DNA from: a virus
Length of the DNA stretch: 56,290 bases
Virus record (IMG/VR): IMGVR_UViG_3300020469_003527
Span: 1 to 56,290 of that record
Reading direction: 5' to 3' (one strand)
The notes below the pieces were generated by a model. It saw only the letters and a list, made by a program, of their open reading frames with translations. It did not search any database and was not told where the DNA came from. A program made the translations under genes and the position numbers. Of the stretch, positions 19,497-56,279 are shown piece after piece. Each line of letters opens with the position of its first letter. Position 1 is the stretch's first letter.

Positions 19497-20477
19497 CTAT
19501 GCGGCCTTTCCCCATACATTATCCCATGTACCTGAAACAGAACCTTTAGCATAATCTGTTGCTCTATTTTCAAAAAAGTTTGTGTGTATAGGAGCATTGA
19601 TCATTTCTTCAACCCAAGGTAAAGGATTCTTTTTAACTTTATGAATACCTTTCATACCCATAGAAATCAATCTTCTATCACAAATATATCTTATATATTG
19701 TTTTACATCTTGTGCGTTTAAATCTTTCATTTCACCCATACTAAACGCTAAATCAATAAATTTATCTTCAAGTTCTGTCATTTTTGTTGCTATTGTATAA
19801 ATTTTACCTTTTAACGTATCATTCCATATAGAACGATTCTCTTCAACAAAGGTCCTAAATAATTTTATCATGGCTTCTGAATGCATTGTTTCGTCAACAA
19901 TTGACCATGTTACAATTTGACCCATACCTTTCATCATTCCATGTCTAGGAAAATTCAATAGCATTATGAAAGACGAAAATAATTGCATACCTTCAGTAAA
20001 CGCACTAAACGCCGCTATGTGAGTTGCAGTAGATTCTAATGTGCTATTCTTTGAAGATATTTCTACTAGATAATCGTGTTTTTCACTCATCTCTTCATAC
20101 TCTAGAAATTCATTGTAAGTTTTCTCAGGCATACCTAGAGTTTCAATTAGATGCGAATATGCGGCAATATGTAATGCCTCTCTTGCGGCAAATCCAGCTA
20201 ACATCATACGAACTTCAGGTTGAGGAAAATGTGGAAGATAGTTGTTTATGTAACCGCCTGCAACATCAACATCACCTTGAGTAAAAAATCTAAAAATGTT
20301 TGTTAAAAAATGCTTCTCAGGTATTGATAGTTTGTTTTTCCAATCTTTTACATCTTCTAACATTGGAACTTCTGTGTGCAACCAATGAGCCTGTTCATGC
20401 TTTAGCCAATAATCATATGCCCAAGGATAGTTAAAAGGTTTAAAGTGATTTCTCTCGTCTTGAAGTTTTAATTTCAT
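19497..20477 (-). CDS. nrdB: Class Ia ribonucleotide reductase, small subunit
   Basis: 326 residues of the ferritin-like R2 family. The diiron ligands and radical tyrosine are present with E. coli spacing: Asp69, Glu100, His103 and Tyr107 in REALHIAAYSHL, then Glu in FTEGMQLF and Glu/His in VDETMHSE. The tyrosyl-radical site is therefore intact (class Ia, not Ic). It forms the aerobic reductase with NrdA encoded two genes upstream. A Mom-like gene separates the two. Confidence 0.95.
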   Translation of the reverse strand: MKLKLQDERNHFKPFNYPWAYDYWLKHEQAHWLHTEVPMLEDVKDWKNKLSIPEKHFLTNIFRFFTQGDVDVAGGYINNYLPHFPQPEVRMMLAGFAAREALHIAAYSHLIETLGMPEKTYNEFLEYEEMSEKHDYLVEISSKNSTLESTATHIAAFSAFTEGMQLFSSFIMLLNFPRHGMMKGMGQIVTWSIVDETMHSEAMIKLFRTFVEENRSIWNDTLKGKIYTIATKMTELEDKFIDLAFSMGEMKDLNAQDVKQYIRYICDRRLISMGMKGIHKVKKNPLPWVEEMINAPIHTNFFENRATDYAKGSVSGTWDNVWGKAA

Positions 20478-21264: not shown

Positions 21265-23286
21265 TTAGCCTTCACAGGCTAAACATTCTGTATCATCTGA
21301 ACTGGACTCGTTATTTAGATAATCCATCATTTCTGTATACCCGCCTATATACTCTCCATTTAGATATATTTGAGGTACAGATTTTACTGCACGACCTGTA
21401 ACTTCGGCGGCAGTTTTGTTAATTTTATTTAAATCTACATAATCAAAAATTATCCCTCTACGAGTAAGTTCTTCCTTTGCTCTTTTACAAAATCCACATG
21501 TAGGTGTTCCATATACAATATTTCTAAACTTTGAATCTCCCTCAACAATGGCTTTCATATCTAATTCTTTAATAACTTCTCTCTCTAATCTTTTTGCTAC
21601 TTTATCAGCTTTACCTATTTTTTCTGACCTACAGTAATATAGTGTTTTAAGACCTTCTTTCCATGCTTGAAAATGTATAGCATGAATATATGCTACGTCA
21701 GAAGTTGGTCTAAAGAATAAATTGAGACTTTGTGCTTGGTCTATGTATTTCTGCCTATCAGCGGCATGTTGTACAATCCACCTTTGGTCGATTTCCATTG
21801 AAGTTTTGAAAACTTCTTTAATTGAATCATTGAAGGATTGAATGTGTTGAATTGAACCATCATTTGCGATAATCGAACTCCATAATTCATTATATTCTTT
21901 TTCATCATTTGTCGCCTCTTTTACAAGTTTATCTAAAAATTTATTTTTATTCAAATGGGCGCCAGACAAAGTATCTTGTCTGTACGCATTCGCTCTATAA
22001 GGTTCTATACTAGGAGATGTATTGCCCATGATAATACTGCTACTGGCATTGGGTGCAATAGCCATAAGATGAGAAAACCTTCGACCAGTACCAACAGCAT
22101 CAGGAGCCTCTCCTCTAAGTTTGCCAAGTTCAAGATTTGCTTCATCTAAACTTCTCCTTATGTGCCTGAATATTTCTACGTTTATAGACCTTGCTTGTGT
22201 AGATTCCCACGATAGCATATTTTTTTGTAGATAAGCATGATAACCAAGACTACCTATTCCAATTGACCTTTCTTGTATAGCACTATATTTTGCCCTTGAT
22301 ACACTATCAGGGGCATTGTCTATAAAATATTGTAAAACATTATCTAACATTTCTGCCACATCTCTTAAAAACAATGGATTATCTTTCCATTCATCATAGT
22401 ATTCTAAATTCAAAGATGATAAACAACACACGGCTGTTCTATTTTTATCTGTAGGTAAAATAATTTCTGAACAAAGATTTGACTGCTTTATGCTAAGACC
22501 TTTTTTCTTTTGAAACTCAGGCATCATTCTATTGCTCGTATCTATGAAATGAAGATATGGTTCTCCAGTTTGCATACGAATCTCTAGAATTCTTTGCCAT
22601 AATTCTTTAGCCGATACAATCTCTTTTACTGTACTTGTATTAGGGTCTTTCAATTCCCAATCATCATTTGCATTTTCATCTAACATACACTTTTCAATAA
22701 TTTGCATAAATGAATCTGGTATGTTTATTCCATGATGTAAATTTTGAGTTCTCATGTTAGGGTCGCCAGTAGGTTTACGCATTTCTAAAAATAACATAAT
22801 GTCTGGGTGAGATATATCTAGATATGTTGCGTATGAACCTCTTCTTGTTCTTCCTTGTCTATACGCTAAACAGGCCGCATCATAAGTTCTTAAATGAGGC
22901 ATAACTCCTGTAGACTTTTCATCTGCTGAACGAATACCTACACCTATACCTACTCCACCTCCTAACATTGATAACCAATTTACTTCAGCTAAACATTCTA
23001 TGAGTCCCTCTGCACTATCATGTAGATAAGGGAGAAAACAAGAAATAGGCAAGCCACGCTTACTACGCCCAAAAGATAAAATAGGTGTAGAATAAGATAA
23101 CCAATGCCTACTGCTGTAATCATACAAACGCTGTGCATGATCGCTATCACTTCCAAAACTTTTTGAAACATAAGCAAACCTCTCTTGTGGTGATATTTCA
23201 TCATCTCGCATATAAGATTCTGCTAATCTTTTCATTCCTAGTTCATCAAATAATTTATCTCTACTACAATCAATCTTAATTTCCAT
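21265..23286 (-). CDS. nrdA: Class I ribonucleotide reductase, large subunit with built-in glutaredoxin
   Basis: 673 residues. The catalytic core is intact: Cys in ISCFLPYLHDS, Asn/Cys/Glu in SNLCSEIILP, a second redox Cys in AVCCLSSLNL and the radical-transfer tyrosines in LKTLYYCRSE. There is no N-terminal ATP-cone; the protein starts at the core, so allosteric activity control is probably lost. From about residue 586 a glutaredoxin domain follows (active site CGFC at 597-600, TxP loop in SVPQIYLNG, GG in YIGGYTEM). Then comes a short linker and the swinging-tail CLAC at 668-671. The reductant is thus inserted just before the C-terminal redox tail. Confidence 0.95.
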   Translation of the reverse strand: MEIKIDCSRDKLFDELGMKRLAESYMRDDEISPQERFAYVSKSFGSDSDHAQRLYDYSSRHWLSYSTPILSFGRSKRGLPISCFLPYLHDSAEGLIECLAEVNWLSMLGGGVGIGVGIRSADEKSTGVMPHLRTYDAACLAYRQGRTRRGSYATYLDISHPDIMLFLEMRKPTGDPNMRTQNLHHGINIPDSFMQIIEKCMLDENANDDWELKDPNTSTVKEIVSAKELWQRILEIRMQTGEPYLHFIDTSNRMMPEFQKKKGLSIKQSNLCSEIILPTDKNRTAVCCLSSLNLEYYDEWKDNPLFLRDVAEMLDNVLQYFIDNAPDSVSRAKYSAIQERSIGIGSLGYHAYLQKNMLSWESTQARSINVEIFRHIRRSLDEANLELGKLRGEAPDAVGTGRRFSHLMAIAPNASSSIIMGNTSPSIEPYRANAYRQDTLSGAHLNKNKFLDKLVKEATNDEKEYNELWSSIIANDGSIQHIQSFNDSIKEVFKTSMEIDQRWIVQHAADRQKYIDQAQSLNLFFRPTSDVAYIHAIHFQAWKEGLKTLYYCRSEKIGKADKVAKRLEREVIKELDMKAIVEGDSKFRNIVYGTPTCGFCKRAKEELTRRGIIFDYVDLNKINKTAAEVTGRAVKSVPQIYLNGEYIGGYTEMMDYLNNESSSDDTECLACEG

Positions 23287-45149: not shown

Positions 45150-46094
45150 TTATCCACCAGAGACCTCACAATCTGCCATGACTTCAGTTAAAAACGCTAC
45201 CATATTTACTTCTTGGTCTGCCACAAAAGCAGATTGATATTGATATTTTGCCAAGTGCAAAACAAATTGAGGAACAGAATTAGGCTTTAATTGCTTTATA
45301 AAGTTCTCATATAAATTTTTAAACACTTCGTTTACATCATTATCAAGATTTTCTGAAACCCACTTTCTCATTGAAGAAAAGTTTTTTTCATGCATAGACT
45401 TGACTAAAGGTGCTAAAGAAATATCTTTTACATCTTGTAGTATGTCTTTACCTATATTTCCGTCATAAGAATGTCTCTGACATTCATTTAAAACTCTTCG
45501 CCAATCAGGAAAATATTTCATTATCAACTGTGCTAATACTTTTTCATCGTAAGAAATATTTTCTAAAGATAGTATGTTTTTTAATCTATTCAAAAAACTA
45601 AATGCCAGCTTTGCTTTTTCTTTAGAATTGATTTTGAAATTTATTACTGAACATCTACTATGAAGAGGATTTATAATTCTGTTTAAAAAATTACATGTAA
45701 TTATAAAACCACAATTAGATGAAAACTCTTCCATAAAATTTCTCAAAGCAGGTTGTGTGCTTTGAGCATTTAAATAATCGCCCTCATCTAAGATGACATA
45801 TTTTCTATCACCTGTGAATGACATGGTAGATGCAAAGTTTTGAATATCGTTACGCAAGGTATCAATGTTTCCATTTAACGACCCGTTAATTACGATATAG
45901 TTTGCGTTCAACTCCTCTAAAACGGCTCTAGCTATAGTTGTTTTTCCAACACCAGAGCCACCTGACAAAATTAAATTAGGAATTTCTTTTTGCTCTACAA
46001 ACTTAGAAAAAGTTTTTTTTAAATTTTCAGGTAATATAACTTCGTCAATTTTTTTAGGACGATATTTTTCCACCCATAAAATGTCTTGTAACAT
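45150..46094 (-). CDS. Clamp-loader large subunit (T4 gp44, AAA+)
   Basis: 314 residues. Walker A LSGGSGVGKTTIARAV, Walker B KYVILDEGDYLN, sensor 1 FIITCNFLNRI and the arginine-finger motif HSRCSVINF are all visible. It loads the gp45 clamp at the primer end using ATP. The Walker B reads DEGD, slightly different from DEAD. Confidence 0.93.
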   Translation of the reverse strand: MLQDILWVEKYRPKKIDEVILPENLKKTFSKFVEQKEIPNLILSGGSGVGKTTIARAVLEELNANYIVINGSLNGNIDTLRNDIQNFASTMSFTGDRKYVILDEGDYLNAQSTQPALRNFMEEFSSNCGFIITCNFLNRIINPLHSRCSVINFKINSKEKAKLAFSFLNRLKNILSLENISYDEKVLAQLIMKYFPDWRRVLNECQRHSYDGNIGKDILQDVKDISLAPLVKSMHEKNFSSMRKWVSENLDNDVNEVFKNLYENFIKQLKPNSVPQFVLHLAKYQYQSAFVADQEVNMVAFLTEVMADCEVSGG

Positions 46095-52177: not shown

Positions 52178-52771
52178 CTATTTACCAATTTTAGCATTTA
52201 CTTTTCTATGTTTATTCCACGCAACAAAACCTGCCAATCTTAAAGAGTAATATGCTAAGTAGTTCATTAAAAAGAATCCATTTATTTCTATGTTAATATC
52301 TCTAAAAATTTCATCTGCTTTTTTTTGAGATACAATTCCCATTGTATCTTTTTTATTTGCTTTTAGCAACGTCTGATATTTGTAAGCATAATCATGTATT
52401 AAACCTCCTATCAAAAGAACTCCTACAGGAGATAAAAAGGTATGTAAAAATTTAGGTATACTTGCTCCATCAAATTTAAAGCCTGCTGGTATTACATATC
52501 TTCTACCTTTTAGTGTGTAAGTAAAATCTTTCACTACTTCCCAATGTCTAACGCCAAATATCCACATGAGAATCATTTTAAAAAATCCTTTACCTTTCGT
52601 TTTTATAGGTATAGGTTTCATGTGCGGAAAAACTGTATATTTAAAATTTATTCTATTATCTATTTTTTTATCAAATAGATTAACTAAAAATCCTATTGCA
52701 ATTAAAACAATTAAAACTGTCCATTGCCAGAAGTCTACAGCTAAAGATATTATAAATTCATTTATTTCCAT
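52178..52771 (-). CDS. DUF1353 protein with N-terminal membrane helix
   Basis: 197 residues. One N-terminal hydrophobic helix (WQWTVLIVLIAIGFLVNLF) and a C-terminal domain with VIPAGFKFDGASIPKFLHTF, then LIGGLIHDYAYKYQTLL, the signature of DUF1353 proteins of phages and bacteria (D-G-A-S-I-P, H-D-x-x-Y). Function unknown; the family is often near lysis or tail genes. Confidence 0.75.
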   Translation of the reverse strand: MEINEFIISLAVDFWQWTVLIVLIAIGFLVNLFDKKIDNRINFKYTVFPHMKPIPIKTKGKGFFKMILMWIFGVRHWEVVKDFTYTLKGRRYVIPAGFKFDGASIPKFLHTFLSPVGVLLIGGLIHDYAYKYQTLLKANKKDTMGIVSQKKADEIFRDINIEINGFFLMNYLAYYSLRLAGFVAWNKHRKVNAKIGK

Positions 52772-53171
52772 CTATCATCTTTCTATTTTTTAAATGTTGT
52801 TCTTGTATATCTTCTTTTGACTGACCATAATATTTTACTGCATGATGTTTTTCTACCATCATCTCATTCAGAGATTGATTATTACAGCTAGATAATATAA
52901 AATCTCCTAACACTCTTCCATATTTACCAACTCCATCTTTCATAGTTTTTAAAACTTGACTACTTTCTATTGGCATCATTTCTAATACAAAATTTTTAGA
53001 TGCAAGACCGTATTTTTTTTCTTCTTTATCGCTTGTTCTAGATTCAGGTGCATCTATTCCATACAAACGCACTCTTTCTTTTTTTATCCATATTCCAAAC
53101 CCAAGGTCAATATCTACATCTACTGTATCGCCGTCAACAACTTTAACTATTTTACAATTATATTCATACAT
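52758..53171 (-). CDS. Staphylococcal-nuclease-like (thermonuclease) protein
   Basis: 137 residues. CKIVKVVDGDTVDVDIDLGF and RVRLYGIDAPESRT give the calcium-binding Asp residues and catalytic Arg of the SNase fold, and the KYGRVLGDF segment the second Arg region. No signal peptide is visible, so it acts in the cytoplasm if active. Possible role: host DNA degradation. It overlaps the DUF1353 gene by 14 bases. Confidence 0.85.
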   Translation of the reverse strand: MYEYNCKIVKVVDGDTVDVDIDLGFGIWIKKERVRLYGIDAPESRTSDKEEKKYGLASKNFVLEMMPIESSQVLKTMKDGVGKYGRVLGDFILSSCNNQSLNEMMVEKHHAVKYYGQSKEDIQEQHLKNRKMIDGNK

Positions 53172-53175
53172 ATTT

Positions 53176-53478
53176 TTACTTTGCGTCCTTTAGATACTCA
53201 GCTAAATTTTCTATATCAGTATCACTTAAAGGTTTAGCCATCATTATCATTAGTGCTGAGTTAGGTCCTATTTCTTTTCCACTCCGATAAGTTTTTAATT
53301 TATCAATAGTGTATTCTACTGAATTTCCAGATACTTTAGGATAACTTGCCATACCCATTCCAGCTGGACCATGACATTGTTTACAATTCATTTTAAATTT
53401 AGATTCACCTAATTTAGAATTTCCTGCCATTACAAAATTTGAAAAACAAAGTAATACTATTAACAATAATTTTTTCAT
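53176..53478 (-). CDS. Exported c-type cytochrome (class I, c4/c553-like)
   Basis: 100 residues from the ATG at 53478 with AAAGGAG nine bases upstream; an upstream in-frame GTG lies in the ErpA gene. A signal peptide (KKLLLIVLLCFSNFVMA, cleavage near residue 18) precedes one haem-binding motif, CKQCH at 32-36, followed by GPAGMG. A Met-rich segment SALMIMMAKPLS (likely axial Met) and DTDIENLAEYLKD match cytochrome c4/c553 half-domains. A monohaem electron carrier in the periplasm, needing host haem attachment. Cytochromes c are very rare in phage. Confidence 0.9.
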   Translation of the reverse strand: MKKLLLIVLLCFSNFVMAGNSKLGESKFKMNCKQCHGPAGMGMASYPKVSGNSVEYTIDKLKTYRSGKEIGPNSALMIMMAKPLSDTDIENLAEYLKDAK

Positions 53479-53488
53479 TATATCTCCT

Positions 53489-53914
53489 TTAACCGTATGC
53501 AAAACTTGAACCACAACCACAAGTAGATGTTGCTTGTGGGTTACGAATTACAAAAGTTGACCCCTGTAAATCATCTTTATAATCTATTTCAGCACCCATT
53601 ACATATTGATAACTCATTGCATCAACTACTACATTTGCACCATGTTGATTAACCTTTGTATCATCATCTTCAAGTTTTTCAGCAAATGCAAATCCATATT
53701 GAAATCCAGAACAACCGCCACCTTGAACAAATATTCTTAAGCCAGTCGCATCTTTCTCTTCACTTATCAAAGACTTTATCTTTTTAGCGGCCTCTTTTGT
53801 TACATGAAACGGATCTGGTGCTTTATCAGTTGTACTTGCATCGGCAAAATCTATCAACGCATCAGCATCAGACCTCTCTTCTTTTTTCTTTCTTGATAAT
53901 AATTTACTAAACAT
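53489..53914 (-). CDS. erpA: A-type Fe-S carrier (ErpA-like)
   Basis: 141 residues. [40 protein letters not shown] and [12 protein letters not shown] match ErpA strongly; the three cysteine ligands are Cys68, Cys132 and Cys134. An extra basic-then-acidic N-terminal extension of about 33 residues (starting [18 protein letters not shown]) is absent from bacterial ErpA. It delivers Fe-S clusters to target proteins. It is coupled to iscU by a TAATG overlap and followed by the cytochrome gene. Confidence 0.93.
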
Positions 53915-54315
53915 TATAAAATCTCCTGTTTAACTTCAATCTTTTTTTTCTTGTAATTATCTATTGCAGACCTAACGGCATCTTCAGCTAATATACTACA
54001 ATGTATTTTTACAGGAGGTAAACACAACTCTTTAGCTATCTCTGTATTTTTTATCTCCTCTGCGTGTTCTATGCTTCTACCTTTAATCCATTCTGTAACT
54101 AAACTACTACTTGCAATAGCACTACCACAACCATAAGTTTTAAACTTAGCATCTTCTATGATGCCTTCATCACTAACTTTAATTTGTAATTTCATTACAT
54201 CACCACATGCTGGAGCCCCAACCATTCCAGTTCCAACATTAGGGTCGCTCTTATCCATTGACCCTACATTTCTAGGGTTTTCATAATGGTCTATAACTTT
54301 ATCGCTGTAAGCCAT
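53914..54315 (-). CDS. iscU: Fe-S cluster scaffold protein IscU
   Basis: 133 residues with every functional residue of bacterial IscU at standard numbers: Cys37 and Asp39 in GAPACGDVM, Cys63 in [10 protein letters not shown], His105 and Cys106 in [10 protein letters not shown], plus the HscA-recognition motif LPPVK at 99-103. It assembles [2Fe-2S] clusters using sulfur from host IscS and is a substrate of host HscA. AGGAG precedes the start. First gene of an iscU-erpA-cytochrome unit. Confidence 0.95.
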
Positions 54316-54316
54316 A

Positions 54317-54631
54317 TTATCTCCTTAAAACATTCATTACTGAAGGGCACCCGAATCCAGGTCCTACGTTATTGTTTTCAACACGATATTCTCTTTTACG
54401 GGTTTTAGGATTAAATTTTAGAGGACATCTGTATATACAATTAAATCCTCCGTCACTTCTTCTTTTTCTTTCTGTTATATAACAGTTTATAGAATCTTTA
54501 CGAGCCTTTTCTCTTTCTGCTTTAGCTTTTCTTTCTTGTCGTTTAGCTTCTACTGGGTCTATTCCTCTAGGAGGTGGAACAGCACTTGTGGAAAAACTAA
54601 ACAAAAGTAGTAATAATAATATCTTTTTCAT
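54317..54631 (-). CDS. Exported Cys-rich basic protein
   Basis: 104 residues with a signal peptide (MKKILLLLLLFSFSTSA). The mature part is basic, with VEAKRQERKAKAEREKARKD then cysteines in NCYITERK, NCIYRCPLKF and FGCPSVM, able to form two disulfides. Similar exported Cys proteins lie in the plus-strand island. Function unknown. One base from the iscU start. Confidence 0.6.
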   Translation of the reverse strand: MKKILLLLLLFSFSTSAVPPPRGIDPVEAKRQERKAKAEREKARKDSINCYITERKRRSDGGFNCIYRCPLKFNPKTRKREYRVENNNVGPGFGCPSVMNVLRR

Positions 54632-54649: not shown

Positions 54650-55411
54650 TTAAGCTACGTTCCAAATTAATGCTCCCTTTTTACCTCTTGCTTTTACAAA
54701 CTCCCAGACTTTAGCATCATAATAAGGCTCTGAAGAATAAGGAGGCATTTTATCCTCACTAACTACTTTATCGTAAGCGTAAGGAGATTTTATAACTTCA
54801 GCCCTACCTTTCTCATAGTCACTCATTTTATGACCAATTTGTACTGCATAAGCTGGTACATTCGGAAATGCTAGTTGTAGACCTCTATTTAAAGTACCGC
54901 TAGATGCTACTGTCCAAATCTCTGTAGGTTCTACCGAAAGACTTCTTGCGACTTTTATAATAGACCCTAAAACTGTAGGGTGTTCAAGACCAAGAGGTAA
55001 TACTTTACGATTCGTTGTGTCTTCTTCGTAATATCTTTTTGCTTTTGCTTTTGTGACATTTAACATTCCGTTTGCCACCCAATGTATTTCACCATTCATG
55101 TCTAAAACTTTTTGTTGATGCCATGTTGGAGTTTTTCTTTTTGCCATAAAAAAAGTTGCTTTTTTATTATATTTGTTACAAACATAAGTTAAAGAAATAG
55201 GTCCCCAACCAACTTTATTTGCTCCTCCGAAAACCCATTCATTACCTTCAGTTTTTATAAGATAATCTATAAATCTTATCTTACTTCCATATTCCAACAT
55301 ATCATCACGCACAACAAAAAATCCATTATGATTTTCAATAATTGGAGTAGGATTAGGGTCATTCCAATCGCTAACTGTACTTAAATAATATTCAGCCGAT
55401 AAGAGACTCAT
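54650..55411 (-). CDS. PLP-dependent fold-type-II enzyme, ACC deaminase/D-cysteine desulfhydrase-like
   Basis: 253 residues from the ATG at 55411, preceded by ACAGGAG; an upstream ATG is less likely. FFVVRDDMLEYGSKIRFIDY mirrors the RDDxxxxGGNKxRKL start of the family with its Lys, and GANKVGWGPISLTYVCNKYN the TxGxxxSNHxxAxA region. TVASSGTLNRGLQLAFPNV resembles the glycine-rich phosphate-binding loop. The Asn of SN and one Gly are missing, so activity is uncertain. Proximity to iscU/erpA raises the idea of a sulfur-supplying desulfhydrase, but an unrelated phage role is just as possible. Confidence 0.5.
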   Translation of the reverse strand: MSLLSAEYYLSTVSDWNDPNPTPIIENHNGFFVVRDDMLEYGSKIRFIDYLIKTEGNEWVFGGANKVGWGPISLTYVCNKYNKKATFFMAKRKTPTWHQQKVLDMNGEIHWVANGMLNVTKAKAKRYYEEDTTNRKVLPLGLEHPTVLGSIIKVARSLSVEPTEIWTVASSGTLNRGLQLAFPNVPAYAVQIGHKMSDYEKGRAEVIKSPYAYDKVVSEDKMPPYSSEPYYDAKVWEFVKARGKKGALIWNVA

Positions 55412-56279
55412 GCAAACTCCTGTCAACTATTACATCAACCACTAAATGAATTCGTTCTTCACTTCCTTTGTTTATAGCTTGATGTGGTTTTCTTGTATCA
55501 AGAAACCACACTTCTCCTTTAGACATATGAATTTTTTGAGGAACACCTTTAGTATTCCATACTGTAAAATTTGCTTCAAGATTTGTTTTTATAGGTAAAT
55601 GTATTCGTGCTAACTTACCTAAAGACCCTCCTGAATCGGGGTCAACTTGGTCTGTATGTCTTTCAAGTTCTCCGCCGTTTGTTTTTAATTTCATAAATCT
55701 AACACGATGTATTTTATTTCCTAAACTATTACAAAAACTTTTTACTTCTGGAAAATATTCATATAGAGAAGTATCTTGCATTTCAAAATTTTCTTTTCTA
55801 TGTTCTTCTTTCCATTTTTTATTCATCTCTATGGGTTTAGTAATAAAAGATGGATCGTCAGTATATCCTCTAAGAGACAATGCAGACCAAGAATTATCTT
55901 TATTGTAGTTGCTGTAGTGATTTGTAAACTCTGGTAAAGTTTTAAGTTTATCGTGAATACTTTCTACTATATTGATATCAACATCTTTTATTTTTTTTAT
56001 ACTCAATTCTTCAGCGGCATCTACAACATTAAATTTTCTAGGAGTTCCTTTGTAATAAATTGTAAAAATTTCTCCATAAGTTGTAATTTTTGCTCCAACT
56101 CTAATAAAACTCAATTCTTCCGCAAGTTTAATATGCTGTTCATTTTCTGCCCATACATACAGCCAAGTATCTTGAGGAATTTTTTCTATTTCATTTTTTA
56201 AAGAATTTATATTACCTGACAATTTACCGACAGTAACATCTCCTTTTTTCTTTTCAGCTATTACAACATTACTATACAT
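55392..56279 (-). CDS. 2-oxoglutarate/Fe(II) oxygenase, aspartyl-hydroxylase-like
   Basis: 295 residues. The C-terminal half has the aspartyl/asparaginyl hydroxylase pattern: ELERHTDQVDPDSGGSLG (iron-binding HxD), ARIHLPIKTNLEANFTVWN, GEVWFLDTRKPHQAINKG (second His) and ERIHLVVDVIV. The N-terminal 80 residues (WLYVWAENEQHIKLAEELSF) look like a partial GNAT fold. Proteins of this type are frequent in marine T4-like phages. The natural substrate is unknown. Complete in the window; start 11 bases from the right edge. Confidence 0.8.
   Translation of the reverse strand: MYSNVVIAEKKKGDVTVGKLSGNINSLKNEIEKIPQDTWLYVWAENEQHIKLAEELSFIRVGAKITTYGEIFTIYYKGTPRKFNVVDAAEELSIKKIKDVDINIVESIHDKLKTLPEFTNHYSNYNKDNSWSALSLRGYTDDPSFITKPIEMNKKWKEEHRKENFEMQDTSLYEYFPEVKSFCNSLGNKIHRVRFMKLKTNGGELERHTDQVDPDSGGSLGKLARIHLPIKTNLEANFTVWNTKGVPQKIHMSKGEVWFLDTRKPHQAINKGSEERIHLVVDVIVDRSLHESLIG

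Follow-up and report, generated by a model that had tools for sequence, protein, structure and literature searches.

Does a small cytochrome gene near the end of an uncultured viral contig belong to the phage, and which electrons would its product carry? These questions were raised by a gene, hereafter cytC, in the window, i.e. the whole stretch of 56,290 nucleotides analysed here (positions 1-56,290 of the IMG/VR record IMGVR_UViG_3300020469_003527). A sequence-only reading had described it as an exported monohaem cytochrome c carried by a phage, coupled to Fe-S genes and possibly serving a terminal oxidase. The features on which our analysis relies are as follows.

19497-20477, minus strand: NrdB, ribonucleotide reductase small chain (44% identity to the NrdB of L010)
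21265-23286, minus strand: NrdA, ribonucleotide reductase large chain (48% identity to the NrdA of L003)
45150-46094, minus strand: gp44 clamp loader, a T4-type core gene (52-57% identity to T4-like phage isolates)
51657-52163, minus strand: phage peptide deformylase (PF01327, phrog_2890)
52178-52771, minus strand: DUF1353 / PHROG tail assembly chaperone, phage flank (Pfam and PHROG)
52758-53171, minus strand: staphylococcal-nuclease-like gene, downstream of cytC (PF00565)
53176-53478, minus strand: cytC, monohaem class I cytochrome c of 100 aa with predicted export (open reading frame; PF00034, E 3.5e-11)
53489-53914, minus strand: erpA, A-type Fe-S carrier (NF010147 ErpA above cut-off, phrog_17776)
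53914-54315, minus strand: iscU, Fe-S scaffold overlapping the erpA start (TIGR01999 above cut-off, phrog_8429)
54317-54631, minus strand: SP104, small protein with a signal-peptide-like N-terminus and conserved cysteines (open reading frame)

The cytochrome gene and its operon

The open reading frame of cytC spans exactly 53176-53478, starts with ATG and encodes a protein that begins with MKKLLLIVLLCFSNFVMA, continues with GNSKLGESKFKMNCKQCHGPAGMG and ends with GPNSALMIMMAKPLSDTDIENLAEYLKDAK. Read by eye, its N-terminus combines Lys-Lys, a hydrophobic core and a VMA cleavage site, with predicted cleavage after A18, in keeping with the signal peptide previously predicted. The claimed CxxCH motif is present as CKQCH (haem residues Cys32, Cys35 and His36), and is not a chance motif since the protein reached 44.7 bits against Pfam Cytochrom_C (PF00034), for a cut-off of 21.3. 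The axial ligand was assigned by alignment to Met77, which phmmer aligned with M167 of the Pseudomonas stutzeri cytochrome c4, a residue that we take to be an axial ligand; the two Cys, the His and Met77 were invariant across 26 aligned homologues. By its sequence, cytC is a class I cytochrome c, presumably loaded with haem.

The AlphaFold model, of moderate confidence (pLDDT 75), displayed the predicted all-helical cytochrome c fold and best matched small cytochromes c in the PDB (Foldseek against 8yts: TM 0.61/0.72, E 1.3e-4). The best PDB matches were the Thioalkalivibrio paradoxus cytochrome c546/556, the P. nautica c552 and cytochrome c4. The first of these (8yts) ranked top by both sequence (E 6e-19) and fold, with about 41% identity to cytC, but its spectrum has been described as unusual. 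The earlier "c4/c553-like" label was thus right in terms of fold and sequence, but cytC is not itself a cytochrome c4: each domain of the latter (PDB 1etp) aligns with cytC, its axial Met matching at M167, whereas c4 is dihaem and cytC carries a single CxxCH in 100 aa.

On the coding strand, SP104, iscU, erpA, cytC, the nuclease, DUF1353 and the peptide deformylase follow one another, with gp45 and gp44 farther on; cytC is co-oriented with both the Fe-S genes and the phage core genes, as had been stated. The start of cytC lies 10 nt behind the erpA stop and is preceded by a good ribosome-binding site (AAAGGAGATATAATG), iscU, erpA and cytC each having their own GGAG site and short gaps. Both Fe-S assignments exceeded the cut-offs of their NCBI equivalog models (ErpA, NF010147, 162 bits for 117; IscU, TIGR01999, 234 bits for 192), so that the proposed Fe-S linkage holds within the window. 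No match to SP104 was found in Pfam, PHROG or NCBIfam; this gene also adjoins or neighbours the cytochrome in three other T4-like phages (L002, L004 and L044). The T4 late promoter TATAAATA was not found near the operon, and the motif was no commoner than chance across the window. The nrdA and nrdB genes of the window lie about 30 kb from cytC. Beside the Fe-S block, positions 54650-56279 hold an aspartyl/asparaginyl hydroxylase-like gene and a "threonine dehydratase" PHROG match, at a place occupied by gp46/gp47 in L002.

IscU and A-type carrier genes have already been reported in T4-like environmental viral genomes, with viral IscU grouping with Gammaproteobacteria in their tree (PMC5332604). 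These marine genomes carry the same kind of Fe-S genes as the window, but the paper nowhere uses the word "cytochrome", whereas the block of the window includes cytC. Another iscU match, in a record named Acinetobacter phage (CAKLQF020000009.1), was rejected as phage iscU: it sits in a bacterial isc operon which, together with mfd and ppiD, makes this stretch look like host DNA. The same match occurs in a second record of that name (CAKLQH020000011.1).

Viral origin, distribution and selection

The objection that this end of the contig might be bacterial was removed by L002, a segment of a 143,979-base IMG/VR viral contig whose cytochrome is 93% identical to cytC and lies in the same SP104-iscU-erpA-cytC block. 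One of its flanks carries gp22, gp23, gp19, uvsW, gp55, gp47 and gp46, and the other DUF1353, peptide deformylase, gp45, gp44 and hsp20 (T4 names read off the sequences), the staphylococcal-nuclease-like gene being absent downstream of the cytochrome. With T4 core genes on both sides, the gene is phage-carried, as the sequence-only reading had claimed, and has the phage flanks of an auxiliary metabolic gene. The gp44 of the window, a T4-type core gene, matched phages of Stenotrophomonas, Methylophilales and Pelagibacter at 56-57% identity, and by this sequence comparison the contig belongs among T4-like phages. No tRNA that could have served for host assignment was found in the window, and these phages may be called aquatic on the basis of related phages and MAG names.

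A cytochrome of the cytC type is present on about 25 viral contigs. In the tree, 22 of the 25 viral rows, window included, form a single phage clade (support 99/97), with L014/L015 and L045 falling outside it. In the part of L045 that was inspected there is no phage marker, and this contig may be cellular. The viral copies are under purifying selection, with a median dN/dS of 0.098 (range 0-0.24; simple NG86 counting on 147 pairs with usable dS), and the gene is therefore retained under selection, as expected of an auxiliary metabolic gene. T4-like and podovirus-like phages both occur within the clade, indicating that the gene moved between phage types.

Its surroundings differ between these phages. 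ErpA adjoins or neighbours the cytochrome, in several orders, in the T4-like relatives L002, L004, L008, L014 and L044, whereas in 15 podovirus-like loci a ribonucleotide reductase (RNR) gene lies close upstream, several with a 4-nt overlap; the coupling to Fe-S genes thus extends to T4-like relatives but is not a general rule. Where tested, the podovirus-like contigs carry a DNA polymerase and an internal virion or lytic protein. In three of them (L039, L041 and L042), the same place is taken by a single-chain RNR gene, read as class II. A redoxin gene lies near the cytochrome in L004. A third kind of cytochrome, dihaem and c4-like, is encoded at L103:8763-9329, on a contig that also carries ErpA and an SP104-like gene.

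Bacterial relatives and candidate electron partner

The closest bacterial homologues, from MAGs of Alpha- and Gammaproteobacteria, are 55-63% identical to cytC and share its length, its ligands and the signature GPNSALMIMMA. Directly downstream, they are followed by a gene for a protein of ~437 aa matching PF07995, Glucose/Sorbosone dehydrogenase (GSDH). This gene adjoins the cytochrome in all 18 family loci with a neighbouring stretch on the contig (L018-L021, L024-L026 and L115-L125), on the upstream side in L125. The contigs of L022 and L023 end just past the cytochrome, and in the L022 genome another contig (L112) begins with a matching GSDH; no GSDH was found at L126 and L127, the weakest family matches. 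This GSDH-associated family (43 tree rows, support 100/99) includes all phage copies of the cytC type, and is their parent family by the tree. It is sparse in bacteria, occurring in 9 of the 385 genomes of one sample and in 5 of the 369 of another. The bacterial enzyme is likely PQQ-dependent, and we do not put this more firmly because the match to the NCBI PQQ-dehydrogenase subfamily model was partial (102 bits, cut-off 435); pqqB, pqqC and pqqE are close to the cytochrome in L026.

By contrast, the phage gene stands among Fe-S or RNR genes and not beside GSDH. A search of 11 viral records found no GSDH, and a GSDH peptide pattern had no match among viral contigs; the partner during infection is thus an assumed one, and the adjacency in bacterial relatives does not prove that phage cytC has the same partner.

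From these results, we consider it reasonably probable that cytC serves a T4-like phage as an auxiliary metabolic gene, encoding a periplasmic shuttle related to the GSDH-adjacent cytochromes. Its most likely effect is to reinforce electron shuttling from a host PQQ dehydrogenase to the terminal oxidase. As the nearest bacterial homologues adjoin such a gene, the electron source is probably a host PQQ-dependent periplasmic sugar dehydrogenase; we infer delivery to the terminal oxidase. The protein would be exported by Sec, receive haem c from the host cytochrome c maturation machinery and, as a soluble protein, shuttle electrons across the periplasm; it would be the phage form of the cytochrome whose bacterial gene neighbours that of a PQQ-dependent glucose/sorbosone-type dehydrogenase. 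Only the carrier would be brought by the phage, and the dehydrogenase that it would bind and the terminal oxidase would come from the host. With more of this carrier, electrons from the oxidation of sugars or alcohols in the periplasm would be able to pass directly to the oxidase, so that proton motive force and ATP would still be available for making dNTPs and virions once host gene expression stops.

The strongest competing explanation, close to the terminal-oxidase idea of the earlier reading, is that cytC, without any particular connection to a sugar dehydrogenase, replaces or supplements the general shuttle of the host between bc1 and the terminal oxidase. Its fold and sequence do resemble those of the general-purpose c552, c553 and c4, the phage lacks GSDH, and the nearby IscU and ErpA could help to build Rieske and other Fe-S respiratory proteins. 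However, the phylogeny places cytC in the GSDH-adjacent family, away from general c5-type cytochromes, and the GPNSALMIMMA signature has been retained, which leaves this general role possible but rather unlikely.

We judge it improbable that the protein serves redox or iron homeostasis instead of energy, as a periplasmic haem protein acting against peroxide or for electron balance within an iron-cofactor cassette with IscU, ErpA and, elsewhere, NrdB. Such a cassette could account for the recurrence of ErpA beside the cytochrome in several T4-like relatives, for the adjoining RNR of podovirus-like phages and for the redoxin of L004, but the single-chain RNR in three podovirus-like loci shows that the diiron link is not constant, and the conserved axial Met fits electron transfer better than peroxidase or ligand-binding chemistry. 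Finally, a functionless passenger or decayed host gene caught in viral contigs, as might be read from the in-frame fusion to the downstream nuclease at L013:171-845, which lost the last residues and may be a deletion or an assembly fault, and from L101, where erpA is kept and no cytochrome was found, is very hard to reconcile with phage flanks on two sides, a 22-member phage clade, a dN/dS of about 0.1, intact ligands and recurrent yet different phage contexts.

Phage cytochromes beyond this locus

The earlier statement that c-type cytochromes are very rare in phages was accurate for isolates, among which 50,697 records gave no match to a cytC-type cytochrome; it does not hold for uncultured viral contigs, in which cytochromes are common. 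PHROGs contained no relative of cytC, and no phage cytochrome of this kind was found in the open literature collection searched, which is incomplete. A profile scan recovered 151 viral contigs with class I cytochromes, the matches from L047 on corresponding to a different protein that defines a second family (L047-L100 and L128-L204). These proteins are monohaem and about 145 aa long; a hydrophobic helix at the N-terminus is followed by a CxxxC segment and next by GCAACHG and MSSTMW (e.g. L066:9779-10210), and they are predicted from sequence to be membrane-anchored.

A scan dedicated to this second family matched 494 viral contigs, many of them near-copies. Its members often adjoin nrdB and/or a glutaredoxin gene: among 71 distinct sequences, an RNR gene was upstream in 29 of the 58 with room there, and glutaredoxin downstream in 35 of 68. 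Full-length members were found neither in phage isolates nor in the genomes sampled from two bacterial classes (369 and 385), a search for which no positive control existed. Long branches in the tree make the placement of this family relative to that of cytC tentative. Directly upstream of the anchored cytochrome, a ~130-aa two-helix-looking protein was observed in 19 of the 71 distinct cases (e.g. L066:9378-9779 and L073:9387-9770); it belongs to no known family and is likely the partner of that cytochrome. Just downstream, L073:10209-10667 encodes a membrane protein that looks DoxX-like by eye, with no NCBIfam match.

In cyanophages, photosynthesis genes and nrd can share one module. Two phage cytochrome families beside RNR genes recall this arrangement and favour an energy role, in which periplasmic electron flow would be sustained during dNTP synthesis. 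Cyanophage plastocyanin (petE), thought to favour electron transfer to cytochrome oxidase (review, PMC10452541), is likewise a phage-encoded soluble electron carrier, as proposed for cytC, but it is a copper protein of phages with phototrophic hosts whereas cytC is a class I cytochrome c. An earlier cytochrome-type gene, phage soxD, was known from two contigs only, the second haem motif missing in both and the first in one (PMC8190135); by contrast, the haem motif of cytC is intact.

More tentatively, and with somewhat less than even confidence, we suggest that c-type cytochromes from two or more distinct families are widespread in aquatic phages of heterotrophs, often in a cluster with ribonucleotide reductase, as a respiratory counterpart of cyanophage photosynthesis genes, the virus supplying a limiting periplasmic carrier to pay for dNTP synthesis. 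Phage electron carriers were previously known from cyanophages. An intact, selected cytochrome c common to T4-like and podovirus-like phages points to viruses of heterotrophs supporting respiration as well, here with a concrete candidate host partner, the PQQ sugar dehydrogenase. Since isolates lack these cytochromes, phage control of host respiration may have escaped notice, and the large anchored family indicates that it could be widespread.
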